A DNA stretch of 64,000 bases from Paramacrobiotus metropolitanus (taxonomy: Eukaryota > Tardigrada > Eutardigrada > Parachela > Macrobiotidae), in assembly GCF_019649055.1 (NCBI RefSeq), contig NW_026570246.1:1-64000 (forward strand), written 5' to 3'. Below, piece by piece: positions 39,933 through 63,177 of the stretch. The stretch's first letter is position 1, and the number at the start of each line of letters is the position of its first letter. Made by a program: the position numbers and the translations under genes. Under the pieces are notes generated by a model. It ran no database searches and was not told the origin of the DNA. It was given only the letters and a program-made list of their open reading frames with translations.

Positions 39933-41715
39933 GTGAGTGCGATGTAGAATCCATATTTTTTGAAAGCGAGCAGGTCACTTTGTCTTCACTCAAATCTTCT
40001 TTCTCTTCCTTGTACCTGTACGTATCGGTGTACCTATGATTTTAGTGGCTCGTTTTAAATTTAAATTTTTAAATGCACGTAATAATTATATTACGTTGCC
40101 AATATATCTGTACATGCAGTCATTCGTAATCTCTTGTTTCGCATTAGCTCTGGGATGGCATTGTTATGGTTTGTGACTGACTACTGTTGTTTAGAATTCC
40201 ACAAGGACATGATATTACTATATAAAATTCGTTACAGAAAAAAGTGAGGAATACAATGGAAACAGCCACGTAAGCTTTCATATTCCCATACAAACAGATG
40301 CTACAGTTGTACAAGCGAATTGCAAAATAGGTACTACCAAGATGTTGGTTTTATTTCCTTAAATTTGCGATTGTGCTTGTAGTGTACAAAACGATTAGAA
40401 TCCACAACAAATTATACAAGGAATAACAGTCTCGTACAAAATGTACCAGGACAGATATTGCACGTTTTCGGAAGACTTGTGAAGACTGTGAACAAAGTAA
40501 CAACGTGAGTATAAATTGTTGAAATTCTGGTGTGGTCACAAATTAATAATTTTAGAGTTCCACTGTGGCGGTGATTTTTTTTCAAACATAGCCAAAACAT
40601 CGCTGAAACTTCTCATTTGCATTTCTTTTCAAACATCTCGAGTACTCACCCGGCCGGCTTCCTGGATCGAGCAGTACCAGCGCAGATGACCTCAAAGTAT
40701 TTACCAACAGTGGTGATGGTGCATGACCTTTCTACCATTGTTGTTTAAATTTTCATGAGACTGCGCTGGCGGTAGTAGGAAAAACGAACTAAAAAACATT
40801 GCGATTTGCAAAGAATTATTCTCTTGAGTTCCGACTATAAATAGCTCGTAGCGTCGTAGGGAAAGCGTACGGGTTCCGGATCGCAACCGTCCTCTCCAAG
40901 TGCAAGTAACTCAGTAAGGCGTAGTCGTGTCTCATGTAGAGTGCCGAGGCGCATGGACTAAAGGCCTTCCGTTTTCTGACCGTTTTCTGAGATGGAGAAA
41001 AAGTTTCGCGAGGAGACGGTGTTGACAAGCTTCCGAGGTCGCAGAGGTCCGACGACACTGTCACTTCGACTGCCCGTCCCGTCGTGGTGATCGAAACGTG
41101 TATTGCCCTTTTGAAAGGATCGAATGGCCAGCAGAAAATCGCTTTATCCTGTTATCTGGGCACTTTATATTCGTCGTATATTTGCTTTCGTGTACTTGCA
41201 AATACATTTCTTACTGTCACGTAATGAAATGATAAAAAAACTACAACACCGCACCTTACAGATTTATTACAGATTCAGACTTAAGACAATCTTAGTTTTT
41301 ATCGGTGCAACCGTACAGCATAAGAAAGCGCCTCTGATAAAAAAGAGCCACATTTCCTGCAGCTTGTCACCTTGTGCGCACAGATGGTTCTGGTGTGGAG
41401 ACTGAATTTTAATTCGTTTTCATTGTACTCTGATTTAAGTTGTAAACTGGTAAGTTGTATCTTTCTGTTTTCGACTACATATTTTCTCGACCGCTCAGAG
41501 ATGTTTTGATTTTTCCTTTTAGCGAAATATAGACTTGCAAAAACATACTTACTGTTTTGAAAGCAGATCTGTACAGTTCCGTGGCTGACACTTAATTTTC
41601 GCCCAATTTTTCTCTGATTTGGGCTTTCCCACTGACTTCCCCAGGGACCCCAACCAACGCATTGTTATAGTTCCTAGAGGACTCCTTGGGAGATCTAGAC
41701 TCCCAAAACGAAAAC
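39933..41715. other. Spacer with J-family 3' flank
   Basis: TATTGCACGTTTTCGGAAGA at about 40455 and GAGTTCCACTGTGGCGGTGA at about 40555 match the 3' flank of J copy C (62796 and 62872). The sequence between 40.65 and 41.1 kb is richer in GC and open on the minus strand for 82 codons (40816-41064), with no recognised motif. Confidence 0.5.
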
Positions 41716-43430
41716 ATGATGCGTGGAATTCGAAGGTGAAATAATCTGATGACTTGGAAAGATACAGCGGTCAAGGCGGGTAGATAAGTACATAGTGGCT
41801 GAACGAAAACAAAGTTACGGTTGTTTACAGTACCATAAACTATAAAGCAAGCGTCACCGATTTTCTGTTTTGCCTCTGATGAATTCAATTGATTAGTCGG
41901 GGAGCGCTCTGGTTTCCACTATGCATCTACCCGCCTTATAGATAATCCAGACTCCAGAGAGATGGTGGTTTGCGAAAGCTTTGCAGAATAGTTCGGAACA
42001 GCTTATTTTGACTGGTATGATTTCAGCTTCAGCAAATGTCATGTTGTGAAAGCAGCGGCAGCTTTCTGCACTGCTGTGGATGTGCGCGGAACTGAAAAAA
42101 CGGCTTTGGAGTGTTTGGGTAACGATCGACGGTTGATATTCACGCCAACGAGCTCCTCGCGTCCACCATTTCAGCGGAAAGAAGATGAAGCTATCTGGCG
42201 ACGTCAAGTAAGGGTTTCAACTAGACCGTTTAAAATGGGTACTGAGTCATATGAGTGCAATGCTCGGTACTCACGAAGGGAAGTGTTGTCCTCCAGTTAG
42301 CATCAGTATATTGATTGTGAGTTTATTCCACATCGTTGCAAGAGTTTTATTAGGATGTTATATATATTTCCCTGTGAATACCAGTGAATGATCTATCCGG
42401 TCGAAAGTTCTCATACTAGTTTGAGCTTTAATTTTTAGGCGGATGTTTCTCTGGGAAAAACTGATCTGATTACGTGAGTATGGTCAGGCTTCCATGCCTT
42501 TTGACCGTTTTGGGGTTTTTTATTTTGTCTAATGCCCACTTGCAGTTAAGTGTCAGTACATACGTGAAAATATTAGGTTTATTATTTGAACAGTATGTAA
42601 ATGTGGTACTCTACTATTACAAAATACAGCGAGCGGAGCGAAATGCTTGTTACCGGCTTTCTAAATTGAGTGCTTTAATGTGACGGACATTCGTCTTACG
42701 AAATCGTGTAAGGTTAATTTCGATGTTGTGATCACCCAGTCTGATTCACATCCGCTCAGTACAAAGAATATCGGCGACAGCAGGTTTAATTTATTACAAA
42801 CTACCAGTATAATAGTAGTGGCTACATAGCACAAATTTCCGTTGAATGTCTAATGTTCGTGTCACTTTTTTAAGGTATCTGAAAAAAGCCCCATGGAGTG
42901 GAATTGTCACCCCGGACATTCGGGAATCGATCGATTGTCACATGGGAGGAACGTGGATCGCTGCTAACTACCTGGTTGGATGGAGCGGAATTTTGCGCCA
43001 TTTGCTTCCACAGTTCTGTGGCTACACTTTGCAATGGGAAATCCTGAAACGTCAAGGGATGGGGTTATTTTTCGACCACTTGACCGTTTCGAAAAAGGAC
43101 CGCATTGGGAAGCAGCGGGTTGTGTTGGTTCTCGTCGCTCATGCACTGATCGAAGATTATGGTGAGGAAGATTTCAAAACCTACACCGATTTCAAAATGT
43201 CCTTCATGCGTGGTGCGATTGGTGAGCGCGTTGAACTCTTGGCGGCAGCGGGACGAACGGGTCATCGCGTGCACTGGATCGGTGCGTTTGGATGGCAGTT
43301 TGTTGTTGGAGTGAAAAATGAAACTGGTGATGTTATGCAGACGACTAAGAATTGGTATGACGTTTTTCAGGCGTCGTCTAAAGGTGTTCTCCTGAAACTT
43401 GTCAAAAGTATTGACGAACTGATCTTGTGA
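41716..43430 (+). CDS. Gene J copy B, unrecognised 261-residue protein
   Basis: Four exons join in phase: 41716-41735, 42033-42207, 42439-42473 and 42875-43430. I do not recognise the family. The protein starts MMRGIRSKCHVVKAAA. It contains RLIFTPTSSSRPPFQRKEDE and ADVSLGKTDLIT. The C-terminal 185 residues include GTWIAANYLVGWSGILRHLL, LKRQGMGLFFDHLTVSKKD, QRVVLVLVAHA, AAAGRTGHRVHWIGAFG, QTTKNWYDVFQASSKGV and a terminal SIDELIL. There is no signal peptide or membrane helix, so a cytosolic or nuclear location is likely. It shares about 84% of residues with copy C in the long exon, and exon phases and lengths are almost identical, which supports a real gene. The start ATG is conserved in all three copies. 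A relic of gene X follows tail to tail. Confidence 0.75.
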
Positions 43431-43637
43431 ACAGACGATCGTAAACTTTTCTTACTGTTTTTCGTACTACTTAGTTCGCACCAGTGTTGCTGTTACTTTT
43501 ATAAATCTGTAACGTATATTCCAGTACATAACAATGTAAAAAGCGATTAAAGCCTATTTACTGAATCCATTAAGAGCAAATAATACTGCTGCAAATATGG
43601 GTTTAGCCTTGCTCCTTTTCTTGAACTGCTCTTGTGG

Positions 43638-43990
43638 TTAAAAATGCCGTGACTTTCTGTTGTTGTGTTTGATCGCTTGGGATGAACCAGTGTCATCCCA
43701 TTCGGAGCCACGATACGAACTGGTAAAGACGCTGTTGTTGGACGGAGGTGTCGCGGTTTCCACCACCCGTTTGGAGTACTCATTTAGAATGTCCTCGGAA
43801 TCGTCCGCTTCCGGTGGTACATGCGGCAGTTTCGGTCGCCCGGAGGGAGTTTTCGGGATGGCCAACAGCTGCGCAACGATGGGCGGAACATTTGGAATAT
43901 CGGGATTTAAGCTTTGGTCATTTCCCTCTTCCGCTTCGCGAGTGGCAATCACGGCGTTCAGCTTATTTGCTGACTCTTCCGGAACGAAAC
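43638..43990 (-). pseudogene. Truncated copy of gene X
   Basis: On the minus strand the segment encodes NPDIPNVPPIVAQLLAIPKT, then PSGRPKLPHVPPEADDSEDI, LNEYSKRV and ETATPPSNNSV. It is nearly identical to gene X at 63860-64000 (LNEHSKRVGETATPPSNNSV). After that it runs into unrelated sequence (YRGSEWDDTGSSQAIKHN) and a stop, so the rest of the X exon is missing. On the other side, near 44.02 kb, it joins ZO-1-derived intron sequence. Its 43866-43990 part probably shows what lies just beyond the right edge in the intact gene. Confidence 0.7.
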
Positions 43991-44068
43991 GAAGAGGTCG
44001 ATTGCTTAAGCAAATATTCGCTGTGTATTTTTCTACCGTATATATGCAGTATATGTATCTTACTGCAG

Positions 44069-45563
44069 GATACCAGCGATCCTAATAGCAATGTCAATAG
44101 ACTCAATACCTTTGCAAAGCTTCGCATTCCGAAACCGCTGCTGGCACCGGGATCCTGTTTCTCACGTCGCGACGACCACCATGTGCAGTGTGCACGCACA
44201 TATTACCGTGCTGGTGGCACGAGTACAACCAGTAAGCGGCCAATTTAATTACTGTATTGACTCGTCATTCCGATCAAATCTAGGTTTCGAGAGATGAAGA
44301 ATTTTTAATTTGAAAGCCGTAAATTTATAAGTTGTTATACTGGATCTAAAATTAGTGAGCTACTGCAGTCTGCAGATGACACACCGTCCACTTCCGGCAC
44401 TTATCAGGATCCAAAACATGGTGATCTATACATACCGTACTTGTCGGCCGACAACGCGCGGTCACTCCTTCACATCCAAGACATAAGACCGGCTTTCCCG
44501 CGTGCTGTTCATTACCAGGCTTCCTTTGCTGCGCCCAAACCAGTGATATCTCACAGTGGCTGTCTCCACCAGTCCGAGTAAGAATAGCAGTGCCACAGTC
44601 TTCCGTCACCTGTACCAACGGCTACCTCAACGAGTCGGACATCTACGTCCGGTATCCGTCCGTTAAAGGAGCAGGCGTCGCCATCGTCTCCTAAGCCCAA
44701 ATATCTGACGAACGGTCGGCTGAAGATGGCGCAGAATGGACACGCCGAGAGCTTTAAAGGGAAACGGGATTCGGTCATGGCAGCAATGCGGCCAGTGGCG
44801 CGACCTGTTGCGCAACGTGCGCAAAAATGTTTTAGAGAGTAGCAAGAGCTTGCAATAAAGTTAACAGTGAACGAAGTGTAATGGTTCAGTTTTTACATAG
44901 GATGCATAGCGTACCCGATTTATGTAGATCGAACGGACACCCTGACGCATCCCAAAACCGACGGCCACCGTCAGCATGATCTCATGAATTTCCCCTTTGT
45001 GGACGATGAACGCGGAATATCCTCCAGTCAGATGAACTTCCCACCGCCACCTGATGATTTCCTCAGCTCACCCAAGAAACTGCATGCTCCGGATGTGATG
45101 GATGAAGTTCGCGTGTTCTTTGACCACAACGGTATCTCGGGAAATTGACTTCGATAGAATACCGGTGATTTGTATTGTATTGTATTGTATGTATTTAATG
45201 TGTATTTCTGGAGGTATGCTGGTGTCGGAAGAGACTGGTGTCAGTCTCATTATCCCACCTGGAGCACTGACTCATGGTGTCCGACAGAAAATCTATTCAC
45301 AAGTATGCCGGGAAGAAAAAGTGATATCAACACTGAGTCACTGACTTAATGAAAAGGGTGGGTGAAATGGCATCTGTTGCTGGTCTACAGCCCAGATAGT
45401 CTTGCTTACTTTAGGTGAATGACTCTTTTCTCCATATATTCTGTATAGCTGACCGAAAGGTATATCCTCATGAAGCCGCAAGAATTGAAGCTGCCGCATT
45501 CCGGCAGTAATAGTCCCGTCAGTGGGCATTACGGCGTAAAAAGTCTGTTCGCTCGATTAAACG
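44069..45563 (+). pseudogene. Pseudogene copy of ZO-1 exons 17-21
   Basis: Diverged copies of five consecutive ZO-1 exons lie in order: about 44069-44230 (exon 17), 44376-44818 (exon 18), 44902-45131 (exon 19), 45211-45346 (exon 20) and 45416-45563 (exon 21). The introns are kept, so this is a DNA duplication, not a retrocopy. Damage includes a shortened, frame-shifted exon 17 copy, stops in the exon 18 copy, loss of the exon 20 acceptor (TG at 45209-45210 in place of AG) and a stop after ISTLSH. The upstream PDZ-SH3-GUK exons and terminal exon 22 are absent. Flank similarity continues to about 45.77 kb. Confidence 0.9.
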
Positions 45564-46201
45564 GTAATTTACAAAATTGTGCTTGTAGTTCTTTGATAGG
45601 TTCGATGGTACCAGTTTATTACTGTAATTCGTTAATTAGAATAACCAGTTATATTAAAGGATCGTCAAATGCAAGCTGATGAAAAAATGTTGTATGAATA
45701 TGCCAGGCTGCGCCGTCCACACGCTCGTGATTTTTTCCGGCTCGGCAACGTCCGGTCATTTCTCTTGAAAACCTCAAAATATATAAGATCTACAATTTTA
45801 TTAATAAAGCTAAAAATGAACATAGCAGAGACATCAAAACAAAAATTACTTGGGACAAACACTACAAATTTTCGGAAGGCTCTTAAATCTGAACAAGTAC
45901 TGCACTATGCAATTTGTTATTATCAAGGATTAAGGAACAAGAACTATAATATACAGTAACTACAAATAAGATGAGATATCGAGATCGGAAAAACCAGAAC
46001 TTGATCCAAAAACGGTAAACGCCATTAGATTCAGCATGTTCAGAAATCGTGTCAAGTGCGTTTTATTTCTTAAAAGAATTACAGTATTTAAACCCGTCTC
46101 ACCGATGCCGGTTCCGGCAAAACTGGCTTCGGTAAAGCTTTCAAGGTGACCTTTGAGAATAATAGCAGCGCAAGTTGCTCAGAACATTTATTAAAGGTGA
46201 C

Positions 46202-47500
46202 TGCTATGCGCCCCGAGCAACCGGGGGCATAGAATTTGGCTATGCGCCCCGATGTCCGGGCGCACAGAATCTGGCTTTGCGCCCCGAATTTCCAGGCGCA
46301 GAAATTTCGGCGATTTGTGTTTTTTCGAAAGTTTTTTATATTTTATTTGGCTCCTTTTATTTATTTAACCAATCATCTGTCCTGTTGTATTGTCGAACAC
46401 GCTAGGTTGCTTGAGGAGGTAAGATACCAAAATGCGCCCCCATACCCAAACTTTAGGTACAGTAATATGCGCTTTCCGTAAAAAATCTGAAGAAGCAATA
46501 GGAAAGTTGCCAACTTTATCGTGTCTGACCTGAAGTAGCAGTTCAGTTCCAACCTTTACATCCGTAAAGGTTGTAACGCGCATGAAAGCAGGACAGCTTA
46601 CATATGCCTCAACCTGGAACTTTATTAGCGTTGGCACAGACTACGGCAGCAACAGCGACGAAGCGTAGTGATTAAGCTTTATCGGTTCTTGAGAATTGGG
46701 TGAAGACACTAGCACCGAAACACGGGTCACCGGCGCAACCGTCACCGTCGTCCTTGCTAAAATACCCCCCCCCTCCTTGTGTCCTCGCAAAAGAAAGTAG
46801 GCAGGAGGGAAGAGCGACTTGATACATGTAACTCAACTCTACTTCGACACAATAGTAACTAAAATGTACTAAACACAGTTGTGCATGCGCTATGCGCCAT
46901 CGTCAGTCGGAGTTGCATTACTTGTCCGGTATCGGGATGTACATCCCAACGACACACCCTAATGCCTTCTCTCGGCTGGACACTGGTCAACCAAGTCGTC
47001 TAGCCTTGCAACTTCCTCCACTGGGTTAACCCGAATTAGCTTTGCTTATTCTATTTTGCTACAGTTTTCTGCATGGAGTGAACTTCCGTGCCGCTCTAGA
47101 TGACCTATAACAACTGTTTCTGACAGAACTTGATAAACCAGCGTTATTAGCTTGCTGTAAAGTTGAAAATCAGGATCTCTCAGACTGCGTCCGTGATGTT
47201 CTGAACAACCTTTCCAATAAACCAGGCGATAAAAAGGGGATAAACGAAACAAAAATTTAGCTATTAGGGGCAGCTCTCAAATTCTTCAATTCTGTCTTAG
47301 CTTCTGCTCCCCTGCAACCTTAAGGATAAATCGAGTAAAACAAATTAAGTAAAAACATTTAACTGCCGGAAAAACATGAAAATTTTTGATATTTCTGCGC
47401 CCGGATGTTCGGGGCGCAAAGCCAAATTCTGTGCGCCCGAACACTCAGGGCGCACAGCTAAATTCTGTGCGCCCGGTTTGTCGGGGCGCTCAGCCATTTC
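46202..47500. mobile_element. 1.3-kb element bounded by inverted hairpin triplets
   Basis: Left block 46205-46310 and right block 47396-47500 are inverted copies of each other. Each holds three tandem units of about 35 bp in which GCGCCC and GGGCGC words flank a short loop, linked by CAGAATTTGGCT-like spacers. Every unit can therefore fold into its own stem-loop. The interior contains a 90-codon minus-strand frame (46365-46637) with VEAYVSCPAFMRV and VKVGTELLLQVRHDKVG, unassigned, and a C-run at 46765. Inverted ends around a short interior suggest a non-autonomous DNA element. No target-site duplication was identified. Confidence 0.6.
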
Positions 47501-49997
47501 GTTTATTCAAATATTAAGTATGTACTATAATAAATTTGTAATTATTTTATTTGCACGCATGCTGAATTTTAGTAGCCAGATTGCTGTAAATCAAATTACA
47601 ATGTTCAAAACGTATAAAAAGAAACGTCTGATTTCCGACCATGTTTGAATTAGCCCACGTTTCGAAGGGAACACAATCCAGTGAACAAAATTGCTAGGCG
47701 AGTGAGTGACCGAGCTGCCACCACTGTCCAGAAACGAAATCGTTAGGTGACCAAGCTAGACTCCCTGCCTGAGAAGTTTTACAACAACTGCTAACTGCTA
47801 AGGCAGTTAGTGAATTTATTAACCAATAGAGAGAATTATTTGTTTATAGCGGCCGTGGATCACAAGAAACGCGGAGGCGAAGCCGCAAGTGTTTCTTGAA
47901 GCTATAATATACGAGTACAGTACATATAACGAACAAATATTTGACAGTCAAGAGCTTGAGAGTTAAAAATTGCAGAAGTTGATGCAGGAAACGGCTAAAT
48001 TCGATTGGGCATAAATTCCATTGGGTGTGAATAACAGTCATAGACTCATAGTATCAGTGAAGGCGCGCTTTAATACAGAGTATGGTATAACTATTACCAA
48101 GTACTTACTATAGTGTGAGGAGGACTGGTAACCTACCGTTTGACGTCATCACTCTCGCATACACGGGAGGGCGGCTGCCATGGTGACAGATGCGCGTTTT
48201 TTACGGTTTTGTCAGTTTTCTCAGCATATTTCTTTTCTCTTCCAATTTCTAGCCCCTCATCTTGGGGTTTCTAAATTCAATAGGATCTGTTAAAATATCA
48301 GAAAGCTTTAGAGGAGAAAGGAACTGAGAATATCTTTAAAAAGGGACAATAAAATCTGTGGGCCTATGGTAAGCAATAGCACACCAGTGCATTCTGTATG
48401 CGACAGTGATGACGTAGTCGACCGTTGCAGAGTCGCTTCCCAGTCCTCTACCTATAGTAAGTTCTTGCTATTACAAAAGACTCCCAGTAATAATACTATT
48501 AATTTTAATACTATTCTCCAGACTAATAGTGAGTCGTACGAACAGCCCAAGTTGAAAACGTTTCCTTTTTTCTATCGGAAATTGGGTGGTTATTTGTTTC
48601 GTTTTCAAACTTCGCGGTTTCATCCTAAAAATAATACACTATTCAATGCAATACAATACAATACCAAACAATGCAATACACAGTACAATATAATACTTTT
48701 CATTGTCTGGCGTAGGTGTTAAGGTCGGTATGGCCAAAACTGTACCGAGACTACCGACGCAAACGGTATCTATCACACCATCATTCTACCACTGTGTGAT
48801 CGGCTGGTACTCCGTCCAGCCGGAACCGACCGTAGGCTGATACTTCCGCTGCGGACGCTGACTAATGTTCTGGAAATCCAGTCTTTGGGTTCGCGATTTC
48901 CGTCAAGAACCTTTATTTTGCTGCTCGCTACAAGTATTCATTTCGGGGATGCGAAAGTTTGTTTTGTTTAAATCGTTTTTTCATTTGTGACAATAATTTA
49001 AAGCACTAATAAGAACAATACGATCAGTACCAAAACATGTTTAAGAATGTCCTAAGGTACGATACCTGTTGCGTCGCTCCGGCGGTTCAGTTAATAATGT
49101 GTACACCCGCACTTCATGAACGATTTTGAGGAATTGTTTCTCTGCTTACTTGAAGTACTCAATGATGATTCTAACGATGATTCATAGGACATCGTCTGTG
49201 CGGGCAGCTGTCAGTGCCCGCACCAGGCATCTGCGGGAAGCCCGTCGCTTGCAATCCCACAACTGTCTGACAGGTAGCAAGAACGACGGGCGAGCCAGGT
49301 TCGTGTCGATTATTTTGTGCTGTGACATGCGAATTATGGGGGTAGCGTAGATAATTATTGCTTGACCGCATTTTCCTGTTTTTCTTCTATTTTGTGTTCA
49401 GGATCACATCCGCCGATTTGGACATTCTTTGCGGACCATTAAGCATGGTGGGTGGCCGATCGACTGCGCTATGTGCGAACGAGGTCAGAAATGTATTCTG
49501 CATGTTTTCCGCTCGTTTTTGGTTTCGGGGTATTTTTGTTTCTTTATCCGGCTCTCTTCCGAAAACAATTTGGTGTTACATAAGTTAATCCTGATAAAAA
49601 ATTTCGATCCGCAGTTAAAGAGTAGAGCAATTACTCACCTTTATTGTGAAACTGCATCGAACAAATCTTGAGAGTGCCTGTAATCACCTGTACGTCCTGG
49701 CCATTAATTACTGGAGTAGGGTAGCAGACGCTCTTTGTAGTTGTGATTGAATTGGTTGGTAGACACGGGCTGTTTAACGCACCGACTGACCTGCTGTTTG
49801 TAGCTGGACCTGTTAATACTGTTTTTTTTACAGTTTTGGTTAGTATTAACGTTGTGTCATGCTTTTGTTTAGCCCTTGGAGGTTCGAAAAGAGACCAGCA
49901 AGGCCAGAAGCATTGACGTATAATAGTAATCGTAGTATTATTAGATGGCTTAGAAATAACAAAGCTTCGTTTTCTAATAATGCAATCGTGGATGCAG
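47501..49997. other. Spacer with unassigned open frames
   Basis: There is a CAATA-type pentanucleotide run at about 48640-48705. An ATG-less frame of about 80 codons follows at 48722-48970 (plus). An Arg-rich frame at 49126-49290 (MMILTMIHRTSSVRAAVSAR) resembles a mitochondrial presequence and ends at a possible donor (CTGACAG/GTAGCA). A small exon-like block follows at 49402-49447 (ITSADLDILCGPLSM). These last two do not join in phase as read, so no gene is claimed. Confidence 0.4.
48640..48705. repeat. CAATA-rich simple repeat
   Basis: Degenerate tandem AATACAATACAATACCAAACAA-like units. Short runs of the same kind (GTATT repeats) also occur at 45173-45190 and 57475-57560. Confidence 0.7.
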
Positions 49998-50487
49998 GTG
50001 TACGCCCTCGCCGGATGTTTTAACTGTGATTACACTCCCTCCTGCCGATATGAACAAAGCCTTAACAGGTATGAAACGGGAATATGGATAAGATTTATCA
50101 AGGGTTGTTAAATGATACTGCTTTTCTAGAGCCATTAATGCCGATGCACGCAACCTGCTGGTCTACATCGACGTCGATGGGAGTCTGCACAACTGCCCCG
50201 TGAACGGTCAGGCTGAGATGGTCAGTGTTCTAGGTGCCATGTTTTGGGTGCCATGTGTGCTAGTTGTAAGTGGGAAGTATTGGAACTTTAACCTAATATA
50301 TTAAATTGTGGTATTCTAAAATTGTTCCCTCTAACCATACATTTATTTCTGATTAGCCCTTGCAGATTTGCGAAGCGGAAGGCAAGAAGGCCACCGAGGC
50401 TGACCGCACCGTTTTCCGTATGGCCAGCACCAATTACACGCCCGGACCGAATGTCGAGCGGCTGGCAGATGCTCTGAAAACTGGACG
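49998..50487 (+). pseudogene. M17 aminopeptidase exon set 1 (partial)
   Basis: Three exons in order with good splice sites: 49998-50068 (VYALAGCFNCDYTP, a decayed form of VYAPTGPISRDYDDA), 50130-50265 (AINADARNLLVYIDVDG, NCPVNGQAEMVSVLGAM) and 50357-50487 (PLQICEAEGKKATEADR, PGPNVERLADALKTGR). They match three exons of the more complete set at 53.2-53.7 kb in length and phase. No downstream catalytic exon follows before the next set begins. This is read as a partial duplicate rather than a working gene. Confidence 0.65.
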
Positions 50488-51341
50488 GTGAGCCATGTGT
50501 TTTTGCTGATATTGTGCTTTTGATCTTTTTTGGATTGTTTTCGTGATCTTGCGTTATCCTTTTCTGATCTCATAGGTTTAGGTTTTATTGTTTAACATCT
50601 GCATGTAATGAAACTCTTTTTATAATTAAAATATTATAGCTGCATGGACGGGTAACACGGGCCCGTTGGTTGCGTACTCAGGTGACCTTTTCGGGGCCGC
50701 ACGGGTGCTGGTTGCGTGCATAGGAAGTCGTCAAACATTTACGATTAGATATTTTTTCTATCTATAATTTCGTACTCGTAGCCTGGTAGCCTTTTTCGTA
50801 CTCACATCGTTTTTCACTTTTTTTGCGATTAGTTTTGTAAGCCGTTCATGAGACATTTTTTTGTGGTATGCCTAATCCCGGAAAGGAGTCCAAGTATATG
50901 GCCTTGAATGCGACCTTCCGATAACCTTTGCATCCTTTCCGGTTCTAGTCAAGCCCGCAACAAATGCAGCGGCCTTTGGGATAGCGTAGTGCATCCGTAT
51001 TTAACGCTTCTCTGTTTTTAGCAGCGTTCCATGACCAGTATCCTTCTCTTTTGTCACTCGTAAACTTTCATTCGATAACACATCAGCGGCTCCGTTTCCG
51101 TCGTAATACTCCAAAACTGGGTTTCAAAAACATTTTTTCAAATTTTAAGCGGTTTTAAAGAAAGAAGTAATCCGGACACGCAACAGAAACATCTTTCCGA
51201 ACTCTGTTCACGAAGCCAGCGTTCGTAGTTTCCTGCCCACGCAGCATTGACCTTGTATTATACCTTATATGGTATACTGGGTACAAAATTCAAATACAAG
51301 GAATTCTTATATCATTCTCGAAACAGTAGATTTATACTGAG

Positions 51342-54300
51342 CACCAAGACCGAGTTCACTGCCGACGGGCGCAACCTAAGCCAGTATGGCGCCTTCATCG
51401 TGGTCTGCAAGAAAGGTACCGGGGATCAGCCTGCCTTGCCGCGATTCGAGCCCGTCAACGCGGTCATCAGGAATATCACCGAGGTTTGTCGCTTTTGTTA
51501 AAAAATGTAATAAAAAATTGCTACTCTACTAGTGTACTAGTGTGCTTCTTGCCCCGATTAATCCATCATAATGTGCATTTTTAAATTGTGGATCCCCGTT
51601 ATCTGATCTGATTAGAATGTTGCCTTCTGTGTATTATTTTGTAAAATAAAAGATTCTGCTCAGCTGGTGTTTACGATGGGAGTGGATGTGACACCGCACA
51701 CTACCGGATGTTTTTATTTAAGTACTGGTACTGACAGAAGGTTTTGTTAATTTCCGCATTTTTATGTATCAGTAATTCATAGTGCCGTAGTATGATGTTA
51801 GAACCAAGTGATTGGGATATTTTATTATAAAAATATTTTCCACACAGTGTATGAAATGCTTGTGTGCATAGAAGTATTCTAAATCAATTAGGTATCTGTG
51901 AATCTTTAGGTGGACTCTGCAGCTGTCAAATGCTCAGCAGTGATTCGCCTTCCGGAAGGAAACGATTTGGGTGGGAAGCGTCTGGTGAGGACGACTAGTT
52001 ATATTAAACCCGAATCGCTAAGTCTGCGCCAAAAGTACGTATTAAACTGTTGATTTTACGTTTTTTCGTTTTCTAGTAGTTATATTTCGTATGTCTTTGG
52101 TGTGTTGCTTTTGATTTTCTTGCTGGTTACAATTTCGGCGTTTGGATTGATTTATTTGTCTTCGAATCGGGTTCTTTTGGGTCTGGAATATGTGCGCGTT
52201 TATTAAATCACATGTAAAAATTACAAGTAATTATTAAACTAAAAGTAATACATGTAAAAATGTAGGATCAGTGATGCTGATATATCTTATGTTTTTAATA
52301 AATGGCACAAGAAAACCAGGGCTTGTTTTTCTAACAGGTATATGATCCGACCGGACCTCTTAACCGTGATTACGATGACGCTCGCCGATGTGAGGAAGCG
52401 GCTTTCGAAGTCGTTGACCGGTACCACACTTCGATAAAAATATTGAAAAAACATCGATAAGTACTTTTAACACATGACAGGGGTTATAAATTTATATATG
52501 TTAAATTTTGTGGCAGGGCCATTGCTCCTGGTGAATGCAATGCGTTCGTCTATATCGAGGACGACGAGAACCTGGACAGTTGTCCCGTGTACGGTCAGGC
52601 TGTGTTGGTCACCCTTCTGGGTGTTGCGCGAGCCCTCGGCGTTGTAAGTAATAAGTAACTAAAGGCTACAGTTTGAGTATTTCATTATCGGGGTACGTTT
52701 TTGTATTTTATAATTGCCCTTACAAGCGGTACTGTATAATCATTTTTAACCCGATGAATCGTTTTCAGATAATTAAAAAAATTCCTGATCAATGTAGGAA
52801 ATGTTATGAGTGTTTTTTCAGTTATCTGTGAATTATCAGGTGGACTCTGCTGCTCACGAATGCCCGGTAGTGACTCCGGACGGAAATAACTTGGGTGTGA
52901 AGCGTCTGGTGAGTGGTCGACTATGCTACGCTTAGGAATTAAATCGCTAATTTTGCAGCAGTAGTAGGGATTAAGCTAAGGATTTTACGTTTTTTGCCAG
53001 CAGCTTTATTTTACTTGGGTTTGCTGGATTTGAAGGATACATTTGTAGCTTATTTGGAATACTTAGATATACGCAACTTCATTTGAACGATGCAGGATCA
53101 TTGCTGCTGATATGCTTAATAGTTTCATTAAATTCATTAAGAATAAATAAGCATCCTTAAAAAAACGATGTAATCGTTGACGCAGGTGTACGCTCCGACC
53201 GGACCTATTAGCCGTGATTACGACGACGCCCGCCCCTATGAAGCTGCTTTTGAAGGCGTTAAGCGGTACAGCATCGTTGATTTTAACACCTGACACGGGT
53301 TGCATGATACAATTTTTTACAGAGCCATTGCTGCTGGTGCACGCAACCCTTTCGTGTACATCGACGTCGACGAGAAGCTGAACAGCTGCCCCGTGTACGG
53401 TCAGGCGGAGCTGGTCAGTGTTCTGGGTGCTATGCGAGCCCTCTACGTTGTAAGTGAAAGTTACTGAAGCGTATTTTTGGGACGTTTTCCTATCGGGTCC
53501 CGATAATGTGTTGTTCCATTTCAGCCCTTGGAAATCTGCGAAACGGAAGGCAAGAAGGCCACCAAGGCCGACCGCATCGCCTTCCATATGGGCAATACCA
53601 ACCGCATGGCTGGACCGAACGTCGAGAAGCTGGCCCATGCTCTGGAAGCTGGGCGGTGAGCTCACTTGATTTTTTTTGTTTTTCGCGTTCAGTCATTTTT
53701 AGAGTATTTCCGTGGTTTTGTTTTAATCGTTCTGATCTGTGTTTATTATTTTTTCGTTCGTTTACAGCATCGTCACCCGTGACATCGGTGGCTCCGATCC
53801 CGAGCGCATGGCCTCTCCTTGCGTTGCGGAATACGTTAAAGAGACCTTCTCCGGGGTCAAAGAGATCAAGATCGAGTACATCACCGATCAGAAGAAGCTG
53901 GAGGAGTTCCCGTTGTTAGGCGCCGTTAATCACGCTGCTTCCGGTAAGTGCCGACAGTGTGCAGAAGGTTTCCGTCACGACAATGTACACCTGCTTTTCA
54001 GTGATTGACCGATATCACATCAAAGTCATGATCCTGGCATATGTCGGTGAAGGCGAAATTACCGAGAACGTTTTCTTAGTCGGAAAGGTTAGTATTCTTA
54101 GTCGGAAAGGTTGGTACGTATCTAACTTTTAGTTTTGCGAGCCTAATTTTGTTACCGTCTTGATCAGTGTGGGGTTTCCAGCCTGCAGTGATTGCTGTTG
54201 AATCTATAATTTTCCTGGCGGTTAATCCTGTCGTTCGTAATCGCTTTTTATTTTGTTTTTTTTTGCAGGGTATTGCTTATGACAGTGGTGGAGCCGATAT

Positions 54301-54792
54301 GAAAGCGGACGGTGTCATGGCTAGAATGCACCAGGACAAATGCGAAGTGGCGGCTGCATCTGGCTTTTTCAAGGTGCGTATTAATTTTCATGTGCGCGTT
54401 CCATGTTGCATCGAATTTATTTTGCCTTTAGTTCGGTTTTTGTACGGTATTCTTTCCAGAATCTCTCCATCCTTAGACCGATCGAGGAGTATGTCGACGA
54501 AGGCGAAATTACCGAAAATGTTTTCTTAGTCGGAAAAGTTAGTCATATGCTGTAATATAGAGTAGCGTATTAACTTCTACTTTACGATGCTAATTTTATT
54601 ACTGTACTAAAATATTGATAAATAATATGTTTTTCTCTTACAATTATTTCTACGATTAGTTTGCCCGTTTGTCATTCCTTTTTGTTTTGTTTTTGGCAGA
54701 ACACTGATGGAGTGGATGTAAAACCGGGCAGTGTCGCGGCTAGAATCCACCGTGACAAATGTGGAGCGGCTACCGTAACCGCCTTTTTTAAG
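51342..54792 (+). pseudogene. M17 leucyl-aminopeptidase-like gene with duplicated exons, 3' truncated
   Basis: Exon order: 51342-51483, 51910-51984, 52338-52420, 52517-52643; then second versions of the last three at 52840-52908, 53186-53265 and 53323-53449; then 53525-53655, 53768-53943, 54002-54087, 54269-54373, 54460-54537 and 54700-54792. The family (W07G4.4-like, peptidase M17) removes N-terminal residues using two metal ions. RDIGGSDPERMASPCVAEYV and GK+GIAYDSGGADMK...MHQDK supply counterparts of bovine Lys250, Asp255, Lys262 and Asp273. The NTDAEGR-type exon with the remaining ligands is absent, and the last two exons are degraded duplicates (NTDGVDVK replaces YDSGGADMK). All joins checked are in phase and no stop was met. 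It may be a recently broken gene or an incompletely seen one. Confidence 0.7.
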
Positions 54793-55115
54793 GTTCGATT
54801 CTGTACTTTCACACTTTTTTAACCAGATCAGTTTCCAGACTTTTCTATATTTTAAAGATTTAACACTCGTTGCATTTTCGCCAAATTACAGTGGTTGTTA
54901 TTGTATACAAAATGCAATCGTTTGCACCGTGACTTGGAACTTGAGAGCACTCCACTCTGTTGAGTCTGTTGACAGTACTGACTGTAGCGTAGTAATATAA
55001 GTACTGTCGGTGGATAATATATTTTTATAGTCTAATTTAATAGTCTCCATGTGTGATCTCCCAGCACTTGCTGCGTTTGGCCAATCCCCACATCTCCTCA
55101 CCATGCATTCGTGTA
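54793..55115. other. Spacer between M17 exons and the nuclease-like gene
   Basis: AT-rich sequence with short internal echoes (CTGTTGAGTCTGTTGACAGTACTGACTG). The missing M17 C-terminal exons are not here. Confidence 0.5.
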
Positions 55116-56155
55116 ATGAGATGTTTCCATTCCGCCGGCGCCAGCCTTAATGCTGCGAAAAAACAGACAGTATTGCAAAAGTTGCTAGCTTCTCTTCAGA
55201 ATGCGCACTTAAAAACAGCAAGTGCGCAAGTAAAAAGACCAGGTGAGCGCATGATAACTTTTTCACTTCTTGAATAAATTTGCACTAACTTGTCACAATG
55301 TTGTACAAACTGGTACGTTGTTTTCTGCGCTGTCGAATGTTGTGCCCGTTTTCATCATATCAGAGTTTCCTAATAATATTGGACAAACCAGATAAAAGGC
55401 ATATAAACCAACCCACCCGGTGTACAGATGATGTGCATTTGTCTGTTCCGGGCCTAGATACTAATAATATTTTGAACTGCACCTAGAACAGATTCTACAG
55501 CTTCCGCATTTTCTTGCTATAAAGGTGTTTTTAATTTTCAGGTCTTGTGGACGCTGCGGAAGAAGTTTTAGAGAAGTTCCTTAAGTTTTCGGATTCCGGT
55601 TTCTCCAGATATGTCCAATTTGAATATCGTGCTGCGCTCAACGCGGGATTTAAATACGAATCGTATATGCACGGCCCAGTGCATAACCTTCTGGCGGAAG
55701 TGTTTCCATTGAAGGAGCTATATCACATTGAACCCCAGAGGAGACACTATTACGATGAAACCTTGTTTGTTATACCCGACTATATGATGGCGTTCAAATC
55801 ATGTAAATATTCTGTCTACGGCCCAGTATGGAACAACGAATACGTCCTAATAGTGGAGTTAAAACTTAGCGTTGGCAATGTGGTTGACCAGCTGACGGCT
55901 TACGCTTTGTCCGTGTTCGAGTCCGACCGGAGTCGACATGAAGAGCTGTACATTATCCACATGCTGCCGGACAAATGGATGTATTATCATGCTCTGAAAG
56001 ATCCCGTATCGCCGCTTCCAGTACTTCGGGCATGCTCTCCTTGGATTTTTGACCCGTTAAGCAAAGAGTCTTTTGACACTTTAACTGAACTTAAGGCAAA
56101 GATTGAGGCACTTCGTCCCTCAATGCATGCCACTATTCGCAAACACCTAAATTGA
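55116..56155 (+). CDS. Putative PD-(D/E)XK nuclease-fold protein, 246 residues
   Basis: Two exons, 55116-55242 and 55542-56155, joined by a GTGAGC...TTTTCAG intron in phase 1. The N-terminus (MRCFHSAGASLNAAKKQTVL) is basic and hydroxylated with no acidic residue for about 40 positions, like a mitochondrial presequence. The main domain has a conserved-looking Glu (QFEYRAALN), then VIPDYMMAFK, then YVLIVELKLS, and a following QLTAYALSVF helix. E...PD...(D/E)xK...Q is the hallmark order of the PD-(D/E)XK phosphodiesterase fold. I cannot name the subfamily. The remaining C-terminus (HMLPDKWMYYHALKD, LRPSMHATIRKHLN) is unassigned. A nuclease role is inferred from motifs alone; an inactive relative is possible. 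The start ATG is the first in frame, and the frame is also open upstream. Confidence 0.65.
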
Positions 56156-56601
56156 TATTCTCACCGTATAGCTTTGTACTGGCAGTGCTGAGAATCGGCT
56201 CCGTCTGAATAGACTAGTTCAGACACTTTTGACCATTGATTAAATTGTGTGGATCACTGGGCTGTTTAATTCCAGAGATAAGGTACAACCATGCAGCATC
56301 TGTTATTTTGCACCGCCGAGAAAACTGCAATTTTAGTTTTAAGTAACGAAAAATTCAGCTTACTGTGGAGTTATTACTGTTCGCAGTTATTTTACAAGTT
56401 ATGTACGATATTTGGAATGCCGAAAATATTCGGGCAGGCTGGAGAAGGGTTAAAGGGTATAAGTTATGACCCCACAAACGTTGTGGACAAACGTTCAAGA
56501 TCAGCCGTCACAAAAAGGAGAGCCCCTTGCAGTTAATGATTAAAATCAATTTTTTTTCCATAAAATAATTCCTTTCGGCTCAACGCATATGTACACTGCA
56601 G

Positions 56602-59600
56602 AGAAGATTCCTTGAGAAAAATGCCCGCGTTCCTTTCGATTATGAGCATCCGGAAAATAGTATCTCTCGTGCGAATCCGAAAACCACTCATCGTCGCGAA
56701 ATAATCAGTTTACTGATGGGCAGTGGGGTCACTAGTCAGGTCTCGCCCTGATCATTCAGTGCTTTAGCGTGTATTGCCGTGTGACTCTTCCGCTTTCGGA
56801 TATCAAAAAATTCCTAAAAGATGAAAGGTTTTCCCAAATGACAGCCGGCAGTGGAGTCAAAAATCACGATTACGATTTTGAGCCTGATCCAGATGACGGC
56901 AGTCAACCATGGCGAGAAAGCGGAAACTGACACGGCCACTGTCCCCGATCAAAACAGGCCACCGCCATTTGGATTGAAAAAAGAGAGCTGCGGGCTTTGT
57001 ACCAAGACGTCGCAAGCAAAGAACTGAGGTGTGATCCCATTCACCCACCAGAAGAACGCCTGCCGAGTTACATACAAAAATCTTAGGTATTAGTTGTAAG
57101 CTTCTAAGTAGCTACGGTGTACGTAAAAGCCCATAACTATTCAGTTTATGGTAAAAATCTTTTCCTTATGGTTAGGGGTATCGCTGCTACTCGGGCTGAT
57201 TATCTGAAAATGCGAAATCCAAAGTCTTCTCGAAAAACGAAAGGTCGCTTCGGTAGCCAGGCCAGTTTGCCGTCCATGTTCTTTGATCTTTCGCTCCCAG
57301 CTGATGTCTGATCTGGATGATGTACAGTCTCGTGTCGTGTCAGTCGTGATATTCACATTTTGAGCGAATCACTTTGTTATTACTGCTTAGAAGTTAGTAC
57401 TTGACCAATGTGTACGAAGTAGCAACCCTCTTCTTATATTCACACAACGCGGTTCTCTAGGGGCTGTATTGTATGTATTTTCATACTGCAAAAGTATTGT
57501 ATTTTCACTGCAAAAGTGCGACAAGTATTGTATTTTCACTGTATACAATACAGTGAAGACCCTTGAGTAGGGCAGTGATTCACATTATTGAAAGCTTAAT
57601 TAGTTTTTAAGCATTAGTTGTATTATCTGGCAACAACTTTTTAGTGTTTTGAAATTGCGTGTACGGTACTTGTATTTCTGCTCAGGCGGCATCAGTCACA
57701 TCTGCATCGACTGTAACCTCGCAAGATGTATGCACTTGGAGACCTACCGAACGAGTGTTAATGCTGTCTTGTAAACCGGATATCAACATTATCTGTCAAC
57801 CGGAAAAGGATCCAGTGGTTTTTCAGCAGCTTTATCCACTGGAAATCATCCCCCTTACGAACTACAGTTGCCGATTTATACTAGAAAAAACGAGGTTTGA
57901 CATAATACTGTAATATGTATATTGCGTGATGTACTATTTTTAACATCAGCTTTAAAAAAATTTTTCTATGTATTTTTAGTAGTGTTTAGTATAGTTTACT
58001 CGTAGTTATTTAGTATGCCTTGTATTTTCCAATCGTTAGCAGCCAGTTAGAACAGCACGATGTCATGCGTAAAATAGTATTCTGTTGGCAGTGTTTGACT
58101 TGTGTGATACCTTTCAGATACGTACTGACAATGAGATTTTTGTGTAACCGAAGGGTTACCGTCATTTGTGGCTCTACTGGAACGGGTAAAGCTATTCATG
58201 TACCGCTCTTGGTTCTGGACGATCGAATGTGCCGCCACAGATAAACCGTGCAACATCATTGTAACTCAACCTCGAACAATTGCTCCTACCAGTATTGCCA
58301 AAACTGGAAGAGTGTGACAGTTGTTTCTGAATATATTTCCGGTTTAGGTTGGCTTGGATAGACAGACCACATAGTCCACAAGGATGACTTACTGCACTAT
58401 CGGGGTTTTCCTAGAGAAAATCATACCCATGATGAATTTGAATATATACACGCATATACACGCAGGTGCGGTTGTTTGGGTTTTTATAAGGATAAACACA
58501 TCGATTTTAAATTACGGTGTACCCTATGCCGCTGTGTGTTCTATCTAGTTTACTTAATATATCTTATCTAATGCATCTCTAAATTTATTTGGTTGTTTAT
58601 TGCGTTGTGGGTCGTATTTTCTGTAATGCTCGCTCTGTGTTTGTGGGTGCATTTGTTATAGTACCAGCACCCCATAAATTTTAAAATTTTGAGCCAACCC
58701 TGATTTAGGTTCATGAGCGGCATCAGTACACCGATTTGGCTCTGATGCTAGTGCGACAGATGGTGCGCAAAAATTCTTTAAATCAGGTAAGGTTATTTCG
58801 GACTGCAGGTGCAATGCCGTCTCGTCAGGAAATATCTATAATTTTCATCATTATCGTTTAGGCCATTTTCATGTCCGCTACATTATCCGCTACATTAGAA
58901 GTTCAAAAAATGAGCAAATACTTCAAGGAAAAAACCACATCAAGCCCTGAACGCGAAATAGAAGAAGTTGGAAATGCTAACTCACAAACAGCATTCGCGA
59001 TCAAGGAGTTGTACTTGGAGGAATTCGCCGCAGATTACGACACATCGGTACAGTTTTGCTACTAATACTGTTTTGTTATAAATTTTGCATCGGTGTTGCT
59101 GGCTAGTCGACGTCCATGCATCCAGTGAAATGCAATATGACACGAAGTTGTAAAGTGCGACAAGTTTTTGCTGATTTTTGTGTGATGATCAGAGCGGGAT
59201 AATTAACATGTACAATACTGTGTAAACAATTTGTGGCATTTTTTGCCTGCATCGTCAGGGGCTGCATCAGTTTACCTTTGGGCTTTGAATTATGTTGAAC
59301 TTGTATGCCGTAACTTGCCGTTATGTAAAGGGTTTTGAACTAAATCATCCTCGATTGTCTTCGAAGTTGCTGGAGCCATCCATAATCGACAATTTAATTC
59401 CACTTCCTGGTTCAAATGCAGTTGAATTTGTCAAATCTGTTCTCATGTTTCTTCCTGGTACTGTACTGGTGTACAGTGTACAGTGTACACCCTTGAATTC
59501 GTGTGCCGAAAATTTTGAACATAACAAAGTTTGTTCGAACTGGCAGGTCTGGAACACATCCTATAAATGGAGGCTTTGCTCAAAAGAACAAAGGGTACAT

Positions 59601-60539
59601 CATCTTTGTACTTCCTTTCGTGTAGTATTTTACTGTTCAGGCCGGGCTTGCGAGACTCATAATCCCGGTTATGTACAGAAGTCAATCGTTGGAAGTATGG
59701 TTCTTCATTCATTACTGAAAAAACCACATTCAAATGAAACATCTGTCCAGTTGGCGTGGGAAGGGATCGTGTTATTATTCGTATAGAAGTAACAGAAGTT
59801 ATAAAACACACTCATGGCATTACCGCCTGCCGTGAGTGTGCTATACGGTATATGGTAACTAAATTTCCGCTGTTTTATTTACGGTCGGTACTGATGGTGA
59901 GCGGTAATTTACCACGCATGGCATTAATTTTGACTTAAACGTTGATACAATAAACAAGTTTAACTACCCTCGCCCGTCCTAATGTACAATTTTTTACCAA
60001 TATTATTTAACAGTAATCGAACTACAGACCTGCTACGCCAAGTTCGGGAACTCTTTCCCAAAATTACCACAGATCACTCGTTAAGAACTTCAAGGCTAAT
60101 CAATTTTGATGCTCTTTTGGTAGGTGTCTTGCATCTTTTCCGCTTAATTTATCCTCGCTTTATGCGTTTTCGAATTGTAGTAAACTTAAAACTAAAACGG
60201 ATATGCTTGACAATGTTGACCCACGTACAATGATAGCCTCCCTTGTATTCAAATTTGCTTAAAAATTCCATGACGTTCTTATCCATACACTCCAAGTTGG
60301 TTGTGTCTGCCATTCAATGTTTTACGAAATATGTCAAGTATCGTGCAGTTCCAACTAACTTACGTGACCTTCGCAATGTAACTGTTGGCATGGTCAAAGT
60401 TGGGGATGATCCCATTTACATGCTTGGTGTAGAACCGCGTGATGTTGTCGTCGACACGTTTTATTTTATTTTATTTGCATTTTATTTGCAATGCACTGGG
60501 CGTATAATCGTATATTTAGATTTTACGTTAGATGCTTGA
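56602..60539 (+). pseudogene. TDRD9/Spindle-E-like DEAH helicase, degenerate
   Basis: Scattered exon-like blocks run in helicase order. 56602-56739: RREIISLLMGSGVTSQ. 58130-58320: VTVICGSTGTGKAIHVPLLV (Walker A with Ala after Lys), then, after a frame change near 58240, CNIIVTQPRTIAPTSIAKT. About 58709-58788: VHERHQYTDLALMLVRQMVR (motif II tail). 58860-59050: AIFMSATLSATLEV (motif III) and FAIKELYLEEF. 59330-59460: HPRLSSKLLEPSIID and VLMFLPG. About 60185-60240: KTDMLDNVDPRTMIASLV, resembling the VKLLDMGEPRALLA segment. Intact relatives are germline piRNA-pathway helicases with a Tudor domain. Frameshifts, internal stops (for example after YISGLGWLG) and missing motifs IV-VI indicate a pseudogene. 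Confidence 0.65.
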
Positions 60540-61064
60540 TTCGCACAATAAGCCACAGATATTCCGTTTTATTCGAAATCGCTTCAGTATATGGGTCCGC
60601 CATCGTGTCTCTGCACGTTAATCGGTCCGGTCTAGAAAGTTCGCGAAGTTCTTTAAGTACGTAACTTTGCCGATTCTTGCAGTATTGTGTTCTAAATTTA
60701 AGTATTAAGTATTCAAGTATTTTTTTAATTTTTAATTTATTTTGTATTTTGTTTGGTAATCTTGCTGTACGTGTATTGTCGACAATGTCGAGTACGTGCA
60801 CAATTACTGTACTCTTTATGCAATTGTAGTGGCAGTACTAGCCCGCTGCCTTGAGGAGGTTGACTTCGTTAAGGCAGCGGGTAGTTGACGATCGTATAAA
60901 CTGGGCATCTCTCTACCACCGAAATCAGTTAACTTGAGATTTAAGCCATTTAAGGTTTTTAACTTTCCAAAAACGTTCGAGACTGGGTTCTTCATCGACC
61001 CACAAACGCAGCTATATATTTCATTCCATAGAAGGCCTATCTATAGTTTCCATAAAACGGAAGC
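60540..61064. other. Spacer upstream of J copy C
   Basis: AT-rich, with AGTATT-type short repeats near 60690-60720. The last about 20 bases before the J start codon (CATAAAACGGAAGC) resemble the corresponding bases upstream of copies A and B and contain an in-frame stop, supporting the chosen start. Confidence 0.5.
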
Positions 61065-62600
61065 ATGATACGCGGAATTCTGAGGTAAAACATTGTAACA
61101 ACTTGGGAATCTAACTTATGACTGTCGTTGAAGCAGAGAGATAAAGTACTTGTGTCGCTTCGAAAACTTCGGTGCAAGCTGCAAGCAGCAAATTATAACT
61201 CGACGTTCTCCAAGTGATTCTTATCTTCAGCACGTCTGGAATTATAAAAGCAGCAGCTTTTCGCACTCCTGTAAATGTGCGCGGAATTGGAACAGTGGCT
61301 GTACAGACTGTGCTGGATTTTTTTGGCAAGGATCAGCGCTTGATTTTCACGCCATCGAGCTCTTCGCGTCCGCCATTTGAACGGAAAGAAGATGAAACTG
61401 TCTGGCGACATCAAGTATGACAAGAAACAAATTTGAATATTTCCAGTGGGCACTCAGGAGTTATTATTTGATAAGTTAACATTTTACCTAACAGGTATAG
61501 GCCGCAGTGGCCGCGCATCATCTTAGAATCTTTTACTATCTGTGTGGTAAACCGTAAAGAGTGCTCCGTAGAGCGTTCTGTTACCAGTTCGCTCTTTCTA
61601 TAATATTAGCATCTGTAGACATCGTGACAAATTGGAACGCAGTATTTCTAAGTTTGTTATTTTAACTTGTAGGCGGATGTTTCACTGGGAAAAACTGATT
61701 TAACGACGTGAGTACTGTACTTACTGCATGGTTTTGGTTCGATGCTTTGGGATTTTTGGTGCTTGTTCGCTTGCCCGATCTAACTTATAAAAATAATAAA
61801 AATCATCAGTAGAATTGAAAATACTATTATGACCAGCGGAGCGTAATGCGGTGTATTATCCCGGCTTTCTGTACTTTGAGTTTACCATCGTGTAAGGGTA
61901 ATTTCGTCGCTTTTGTTATTATATAATTGTGTGATCTCACCCAATGTAACATGCGCGCAGTCACGCAGTATAAAGAATATCGGCGGCAATGCCGCGGCAT
62001 CAAGTTTAAGTATTTACATAATTTACGTTTGAATCACTTTCAAGGCATCTGACGAAAGCCCCATGGAGTGAAATCGTCACGCCGGACATTCAGGAATCCA
62101 TTCAGTGTCACATTGAAGGAACGTGGATCGCTGCTAACTACCTGGTTGGATGGAGCGGAATTTTGCGCCATTTGCTTCCACAGTCCTGTGGCTACACTTT
62201 GCAGTGGGAAAGCCTCAAACGTCAAGGGATGGGGTTATTTTTCGACCACTTGACCGTTTCGAAAAAGGACCGCAGCGGAAAGCAGCGGGTTGTGCTGGTT
62301 CTCGCAGCTCATGCACCCATCAAAGATTATGGTGATGATGATCTGAAAACCCACGCCGATAGGAAGATGACCTTCATGCGCAGCACGGTGGGCGCACGAA
62401 TTGATCTCTTGGCTGCAGCGGGAAGAACGGGCCATCGAGTGCACTGGATCGGTGCGTTCGGATGTCAGTTTGTTGTTGGAGTGAAAAATGAATCTGGTGA
62501 TATTATGCAGACGACTAAGAACTGGCACGATGTTTTTCAGGCGTCGTCTAAAGGTGTTCTCCTGAAACTTGTCAAAAGTATTGACGAATTGATCTTGTAA
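61065..62600 (+). CDS. Gene J copy C, unrecognised 264-residue protein
   Basis: Four exons join in phase: 61065-61084, 61231-61414, 61673-61707 and 62045-62600. It has the same architecture as copy B; exon 2 is 9 nt longer and the exon 1, 3 and 4 lengths are identical (20, 35 and 556 nt). Landmarks are MIRGILSTSGIIKAAAFR, RLIFTPSSSSRPPFERKEDE, ADVSLGKTDLTT, GTWIAANYLVGWSGILRHLL, LKRQGMGLFFDHLTVSKKD, AAAGRTGHRVHWIGAFG and the terminal SIDELIL. An in-frame TAA lies three codons before the ATG. There is no signal peptide or transmembrane segment. ATTAAA at about 62718 may be the polyadenylation signal. Gene X lies 580 bp downstream on the other strand. Function is unknown. Preserved frames in two diverged copies argue that the protein is under selection. 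Confidence 0.78.
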
Positions 62601-63177
62601 ATAGTCGTAAGCTTTTCTCACTGTTTTTCATACTCTTATTTGCTGTTTCCGGCCAGTGCTGCTGTTGCTTTAGTAAATGTGCAATGTACATTCCAATGCA
62701 TAACGTTATAAAAAACGATTAAAACACCACGATCAAACCACAGCGACTTATTTACTGAATGCATTAAGCACGTACAAAAAATACTGCTGCAGATATTGCA
62801 AGTTTTCGGAAGACCTGTAAAACCATAAAACAATTACTGAAGTTTATCGAGCCAACGAATTAAGACCTTCAGAATTCCACTGTAGCGGTGATTCGTCCTT
62901 CAAGCAGCGGCAACGTATCGTTGTCATTCTTTACTTCATTCCATACGGTTCCAGTACCCGGCACGGCTTCCCGGAAATAATACCTACATACATAACCGCT
63001 GAGTGTCGGTATCAATCATAACGATTTTACAACTCGTACTGTAATGGTACTATATAGATTTTTACATACTTTAAAGCACACTGCACAGTATTAGCATTTC
63101 TTCTATAATTTCCGTTTAAGTATTAATCATTCTGTTAACAGGTTAACCTGCAGTCAGTGTTCAAGCTTCAGACTTAC
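62601..63177. other. J copy C 3' flank and gene X intron
   Basis: The flank shares TATTGCAAGTTTTCGGAAGA and ATTCCACTGTAGCGGTGAT with the region after broken copy A. From 63177 leftwards the sequence is read as intron of gene X (donor GTAAGT on the minus strand). No exon of X was found before the J gene, so its next exon is either small or missed. Confidence 0.45.

Follow-up and report, generated by a model that had tools for sequence, protein, structure and literature searches.

Family J is probably a real four-exon protein-coding gene that was duplicated locally, as a segment together with its neighbors, within the 64,000-nt window (the whole stretch of DNA analyzed here), leaving two intact copies under selection (B and C) and one inactivated copy (A), with gene conversion between copies suggested for exon 4. 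The original prediction of a family in which two genes are intact and a third is dead is borne out by exon structure, dN/dS, and the remnants of copy A. The analysis showed nothing exceptional about this locally duplicated gene with no family in the libraries searched: lineage-restricted duplicated genes are ordinary in animal genomes, and local duplicates are common. With its linked selected copies, one pseudogene, and no family found, J resembles other locally duplicated orphan genes that have a decaying copy.

Copies B (41716-43430) and C (61065-62600) share a four-exon layout with matching phases, and each is followed by a hexamer resembling a poly(A) signal:

41716..41735, plus strand: copy B exon 1 (20 nt; start codon, then a GT donor)
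42027..42207, plus strand: copy B exon 2 (181 nt; alternatively 175 nt from 42033, a second in-frame acceptor aligned with copy C)
42439..42473, plus strand: copy B exon 3 (35 nt)
42875..43430, plus strand: copy B exon 4 including the stop codon (556 nt)
43546..43551, plus strand: copy B ATTAAA hexamer resembling a poly(A) signal, 116 nt past the stop codon
61065..61084, plus strand: copy C exon 1 (20 nt)
61231..61414, plus strand: copy C exon 2 (184 nt)
61673..61707, plus strand: copy C exon 3 (35 nt)
62045..62600, plus strand: copy C exon 4 including the stop codon (556 nt)
62718..62723, plus strand: copy C ATTAAA hexamer resembling a poly(A) signal, 118 nt past the stop codon

The matching exon lengths and phases noted previously for these copies were confirmed, and all six of their introns have GT-AG borders. 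Exon totals of 792 nt (B) and 795 nt (C) are multiples of three with a single terminal stop each, and an in-frame stop lies upstream of the start codon at a distance of 48 nt in B and 12 nt in C. Copy C encodes 264 codons, while copy B encodes 263 with the upstream exon 2 acceptor or 261 with the second in-frame AG, six bases farther on. Because this second acceptor lines up with that of C in the alignment, the 175-nt form of B exon 2 chosen earlier (261 aa) is probably the homologous one. Over the 184 whole codons of exon 4, B and C differ at 62 nucleotides and 30 amino acids, in line with the earlier estimate of about 30 residue differences.

Divergence between the intact copies, estimated by the Nei-Gojobori method over 260 aligned codons with B in its 263-residue form (1000 bootstrap resamples each), gave a dN/dS of 0.297 in exon 4 (bootstrap 0.179-0.495), 0.397 in exons 1-3, and 0.335 across all exons (0.228-0.501); the expectation that the ratio would fall well below 1 therefore held for both exon 4 and the whole coding sequence. 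In neutral simulations with an equal number of substitutions, an equal transition share, and random positions, 30 or fewer residue changes occurred in only 1 of 5000 runs starting from B and 1 of 5000 starting from C, and none of 2000 base-by-base shuffles of B exon 4 was open. Judged by their sequence, B and C are very probably genuine genes that purifying selection has maintained. That one or both of these intact-looking copies are recent pseudogenes or are not expressed would accord with the death of copy A and with the diverged stretch at codons 91-120 of exon 4, where 15 of 30 residues differ between B and C and dN/dS reaches 0.41. Neither B nor C has an in-frame stop, yet the absence of stops by itself is weak evidence, since 358 and 479 of 5000 neutral runs were also stop-free. 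What makes the pseudogene explanation unlikely is that dN/dS falls to 0.36 in codons 1-24, 0.18 in codons 25-90, and 0.12 in codons 121-184, the remaining segments of exon 4, and that the splice sites and the ATTAAA hexamers are conserved.

Copy A retains alignable parts of the first three exons, as well as flanking sequence:

39317..39336, plus strand: copy A (dead) exon 1 remnant, aligning with B and C
39527..39708, plus strand: copy A (dead) exon 2 remnant, with reading frame and donor lost; the 3′ limit is approximate
39892..39932, plus strand: copy A (dead) exon 3 remnant, aligning with B and C, with no exon 4 behind it
40386..40666, plus strand: flank downstream of copy A, matching the downstream flank of copy C (62724-62975) at 64.2%

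The loss of frame and donor in exon 2 was judged by eye on the alignment. A permissive tblastn search (E up to 50) returned no match to exon 4 between 39933 and 41715, and C-like downstream flank sequence restarts at 40386, behind the exon 3 remnant; exon 4 of copy A has thus most likely been deleted. By alignment and tblastn, copy A is dead, lacking both the exon 2 donor and the long exon, as the original prediction had it.

The origin of the copies can be read from the sequence around them, where eight pairs of similar segments were identified in the window. The segments assigned to neighboring genes are as follows:

36712..38405, plus strand: counterpart of 44027-45640; by position and strand, probably the 3′ terminal part of the PDZ-protein gene lying upstream
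44027..45640, plus strand: duplicate of 36712-38405 (72.7% identity)
43692..43985, minus strand: fragment of the downstream, tentatively Axin-like gene, adjoining copy B; its part 43712-43853 is 93% identical to 63857-63998
63267..64000, minus strand: tentatively Axin-like coding stretch adjoining copy C (supported over 63267-63992), probably running off the window

Besides the pair 36712-38405 / 44027-45640, a second non-J pair links 39023-39138 with 45654-45762 (67.5%). Copies A and C share three pairs (39285-39343 / 61032-61091, 39881-39921 / 61660-61702, and the downstream flanks already listed), and B and C share another three, comprising an upstream pair (41631-41760 / 60982-61109), J itself (42018-43598 / 61215-62796, 69.9%), and the pair within the convergent minus-strand gene (43712-43853 / 63857-63998, 93.0%). 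The upstream gene, which we take to be ZO-1-like, has PDZ matches at 33668-33892 (above the Pfam cut-off) and at 31620-32156 (below it), and the downstream gene matches Pfam Axin_b-cat_bind with an E-value of 0.014 and 15.7 bits, below the cut-off of 23. Judging by these neighbors, J is probably an animal gene.

Since adjoining non-J sequence was duplicated too, the copies are read as products of segmental duplication rather than transposition. Most of the pairs would result if a block extending from the end of the upstream gene, through J, into the end of the convergent downstream gene had been duplicated locally. Nevertheless, one simple duplication is insufficient to account for all of them: block identities span 64-93%, and the partner of C is A in one flank but B in the other. 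Several events, or else exchange among the copies, would be needed. About 15 kb of other sequence (45.8-61.0 kb) separates the parts of the second block. The block ends, the dead copy, and the intact copies that record this history all lie in one place. A transposon- or virus-derived gene whose copies spread through transposition would also produce several linked copies of a gene without a known family; this origin is, however, extremely improbable, being largely refuted by the duplication of adjoining sequence alongside the copies. In addition, the J copies retain introns, no transposase, polymerase, or PHROG match was found, and inverted repeats of at least 16 nt number one (short) in 60600-63200 and zero in 41300-43760. 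Likewise, J showed none of the transposable-element features looked for, namely transposase, reverse transcriptase, or integrase domains and terminal repeats.

Divergence between B and C is uneven along the gene. A first global alignment, with intron identities of 0.42-0.50 and an exon 1 identity of 0.43, misplaced parts of the copies, and introns were instead compared against shuffles. Introns 1 and 2 are barely above chance, with their scores reached by 22 and 20 of 200 shuffles, respectively. Homology is clear for intron 3 and for the 3′ UTR, where none of 200 shuffles reached the score in either case, and nearly so for the 5′ flank (1 of 200). The claim that introns are far more diverged than exons consequently stands for introns 1 and 2 and only partly for intron 3. 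Exon 4 is itself a mosaic, with a dS of 0.146 in codons 25-90 versus 0.722 in codons 91-120. The window-to-window range of its divergence was reached by 0 of 5000 shuffles when all sites were considered and by 72 of 5000 at third positions; clustering of identity was weaker by the longest identical run (79 of 5000 and 336 of 5000, respectively). Jointly, the three longest identical runs were matched in 0 of 10,000 random placements; for the longest run by itself, the figure was about 1%. Because patches of exon 4 are near-identical while introns 1 and 2 are unrecognizable, these results suggest exchange between copies by gene conversion, to which uneven constraint along the exon is the alternative. 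In this history, B and C have diverged under purifying selection and A was inactivated, and exon 4 patches would have been swapped between copies.

The earlier statement that J could not be placed in any family was upheld within the resources covered, as no clear match to a known family or transposon protein was obtained in curated profiles, PDB, or viral, prokaryote, phage, and plasmid sequence. Full-length searches (Pfam and PDB sequences) used B only, and exon 4 served as the query in the others. Pfam returned no family for either exon 4 with E-values allowed up to 10, and none for full-length B with a limit of 1, under search filters that remove most matches above E of about 0.1. No family was found for exon 4 of B and C in PHROGs, NCBIfam, or PADLOC, and only chance antibody-chain matches in PDB sequences (best E 0.22 for full-length B and 0.59 for the exon 4 alignment). 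A few exact exon 4 peptide patterns found no relatives in viral and prokaryote contigs, nor did exon 4 of B among phages and plasmids. The part of the literature reached by searching, which cannot prove absence from print, held nothing on this family.

These searches bear on the possibility that J diverges fast and belongs to an animal protein family that has already been described, to which we assign a chance somewhat short of even. The null Pfam results for either exon 4 and for full-length B argue against it. In its favor, the libraries used consist of curated profiles, chains from the PDB, and sequence from viruses, phages, plasmids, and prokaryotes, and the exon 4 alignment, with two similar rows, has an effective depth of 1.12, which leaves remote homology nearly undetectable. 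J is therefore a gene with no known family in the libraries searched, none of which covers animal proteins generally, and the term "undescribed" cannot be claimed for it. If its relatives are confined to a narrow lineage, it would be one more selected orphan gene, with a duplication history readable at a single locus; it becomes more interesting only if its domain is a repurposed nuclease or acyltransferase fold.

Structure prediction, proposed as a way to place the protein, was carried out on exon 4 with AlphaFold2, and mean pLDDT values of 39.3 for model 1 (184 aa, B first) and 45.2 for model 2 (173 aa, C first) are too poor to place the fold; the two models disagree in their first half. The exon 4 product probably forms one alpha/beta domain. 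In model 2 (mean pLDDT 45.2), the order of elements is helix-helix-strand-strand-helix-strand-strand-strand-helix-helix, with helices at 4-12 and 16-32, strands at 54-63 and 69-78, a long helix at 89-113, strands at 120-127, 130-136, and 142-148, and lastly a pair of helices at the C terminus. Three Foldseek searches gave no match at E of 0.001 or less. Among the best 50 matches listed in each, the best were E 0.064 for model 1 in PDB, E 0.0033 for model 2 (acetyl-CoA carboxylase, TM 0.23), and E 0.0094 for model 2 against viral proteins (N-myristoyltransferase, probability 0.97, TM 0.35).

Two nameable folds were weighed against this low-confidence model. The PD-(D/E)XK superfamily has the core topology alpha-beta-beta-beta-alpha-beta and the catalytic motif D...(D/E)-x-K. 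As a conjecture, model 2 is loosely compatible with such a core lacking the catalytic E-x-K: the rough order of elements agrees, a shared aspartate (in FFDHL) precedes the strand RVVLVL, and two PD-(D/E)XK or Cas4-like viral proteins are among the weak fold matches (E 0.095 and 0.22). Examined by eye, however, B and C lack the complete motif, with AHA in the place of E-x-K, and one core strand is unformed; in model 2, at a mean pLDDT of 45, two strands of at least three residues precede the long helix, and the strand expected before 54-63 is a two-residue bridge. There was also no sequence match or significant fold match, and profile comparison of J with a neighboring nuclease-like ORF gave nothing (probability 0.13%). 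The best guess at a mechanism, itself unlikely, is a PD-(D/E)XK-like domain that has lost catalysis and binds nucleic acid, perhaps in mitochondria; it was marked down on account of only two of three expected core strands in model 2. A fuller version, in which J would be an undescribed family of dead nuclease-like proteins, present in several copies, partly homogenized by conversion, and carrying the fast-changing codons 91-120 of exon 4 within a strongly conserved domain, is very unlikely; if true, the fast 30-residue stretch would fit a protein that binds nucleic acid or acts as an inhibitor and whose partner keeps changing.

The domain could instead be a GNAT-like acyltransferase rather than nuclease-like, as hinted by the acetyltransferase chains 7ak7, 9ils, 6gtq, and 6z00 among the weak model 2 matches (E 0.06-0.29) and by the viral N-myristoyltransferase at the head of the viral list. 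Against this, TM-scores of these matches are at most 0.35 with no E below 0.001, the last strands of model 2 are not separated by a helix, and the acetyl-CoA-binding loop characteristic of GNAT proteins, R/Q-x-x-G-x-G/A, was not seen by eye in that spacing. A GNAT-like domain is a highly improbable assignment.

The J product of 261-264 residues has a basic, acid-free N terminus, which gives a weak hint of a mitochondrial presequence. Its helical moments are not above those of shuffled sequences, being reached by 649 (B), 610 (C), and 1535 (A) of 2000 shuffles. In each of the three copies, four basic residues precede the first acidic one, which lies at positions 25, 36, and 21.

Further features and groups of features were noted in the window, as follows.

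6608-7135 and 9598-10079: inverted repeat arms (79% identity, 539 alignment columns)
13084-15207, minus strand: RAD51 gene (Pfam Rad51), outer limits set by codon scan
16396-16941, plus strand: ORF with a below-threshold CARD match (Pfam)
50122-50570, 52335-52664 and 53183-53738, plus strand: exon-like segments (similarity among segments)
51890-52066/52820-52995, plus strand: exon-like segments (same basis)
54040-54158/54490-54605, plus strand: exon-like segments (same basis)
55116-55242 and 55542-56155, plus strand: two-exon ORF, ~246 aa (exon borders by eye)
58117-58300, plus strand: short reading frame with Walker-A-like 'GSTGTGK'

The RAD51 gene carries Pfam Rad51 matches at 13713-14015 (E 8.2e-48) and 14281-14556 (E 1.8e-27). 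For the CARD-like ORF, which has the exons of the PDZ-protein gene downstream, the match (E 0.0011) scored 19.4 bits versus a cut-off of 23.9.

RecB-type nucleases share a D...E-x-K...Q-x-x-x-Y pattern, which the peptides 'PDYMMAF', 'VELKL', and 'QLTAY' of the two-exon ORF appear to resemble. Its exon 2 gave a weak exonuclease match in PHROGs (E 0.099), no matches in Pfam, none with E <1 among PDB sequences, and no viral relatives.

Within 49400-54800 (plus strand), several exon-like segments are mutually similar. These segments, which resemble leucine aminopeptidase (M17), are apparently partial or decayed duplicates; Pfam searches with three short pieces, and with 53754-53945, returned no match.

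The Walker-A-like frame resembles a DEAH helicase fragment, and frames nearby appear broken. The inverted repeat, possibly a transposable element, contains minisatellite-like arrays.
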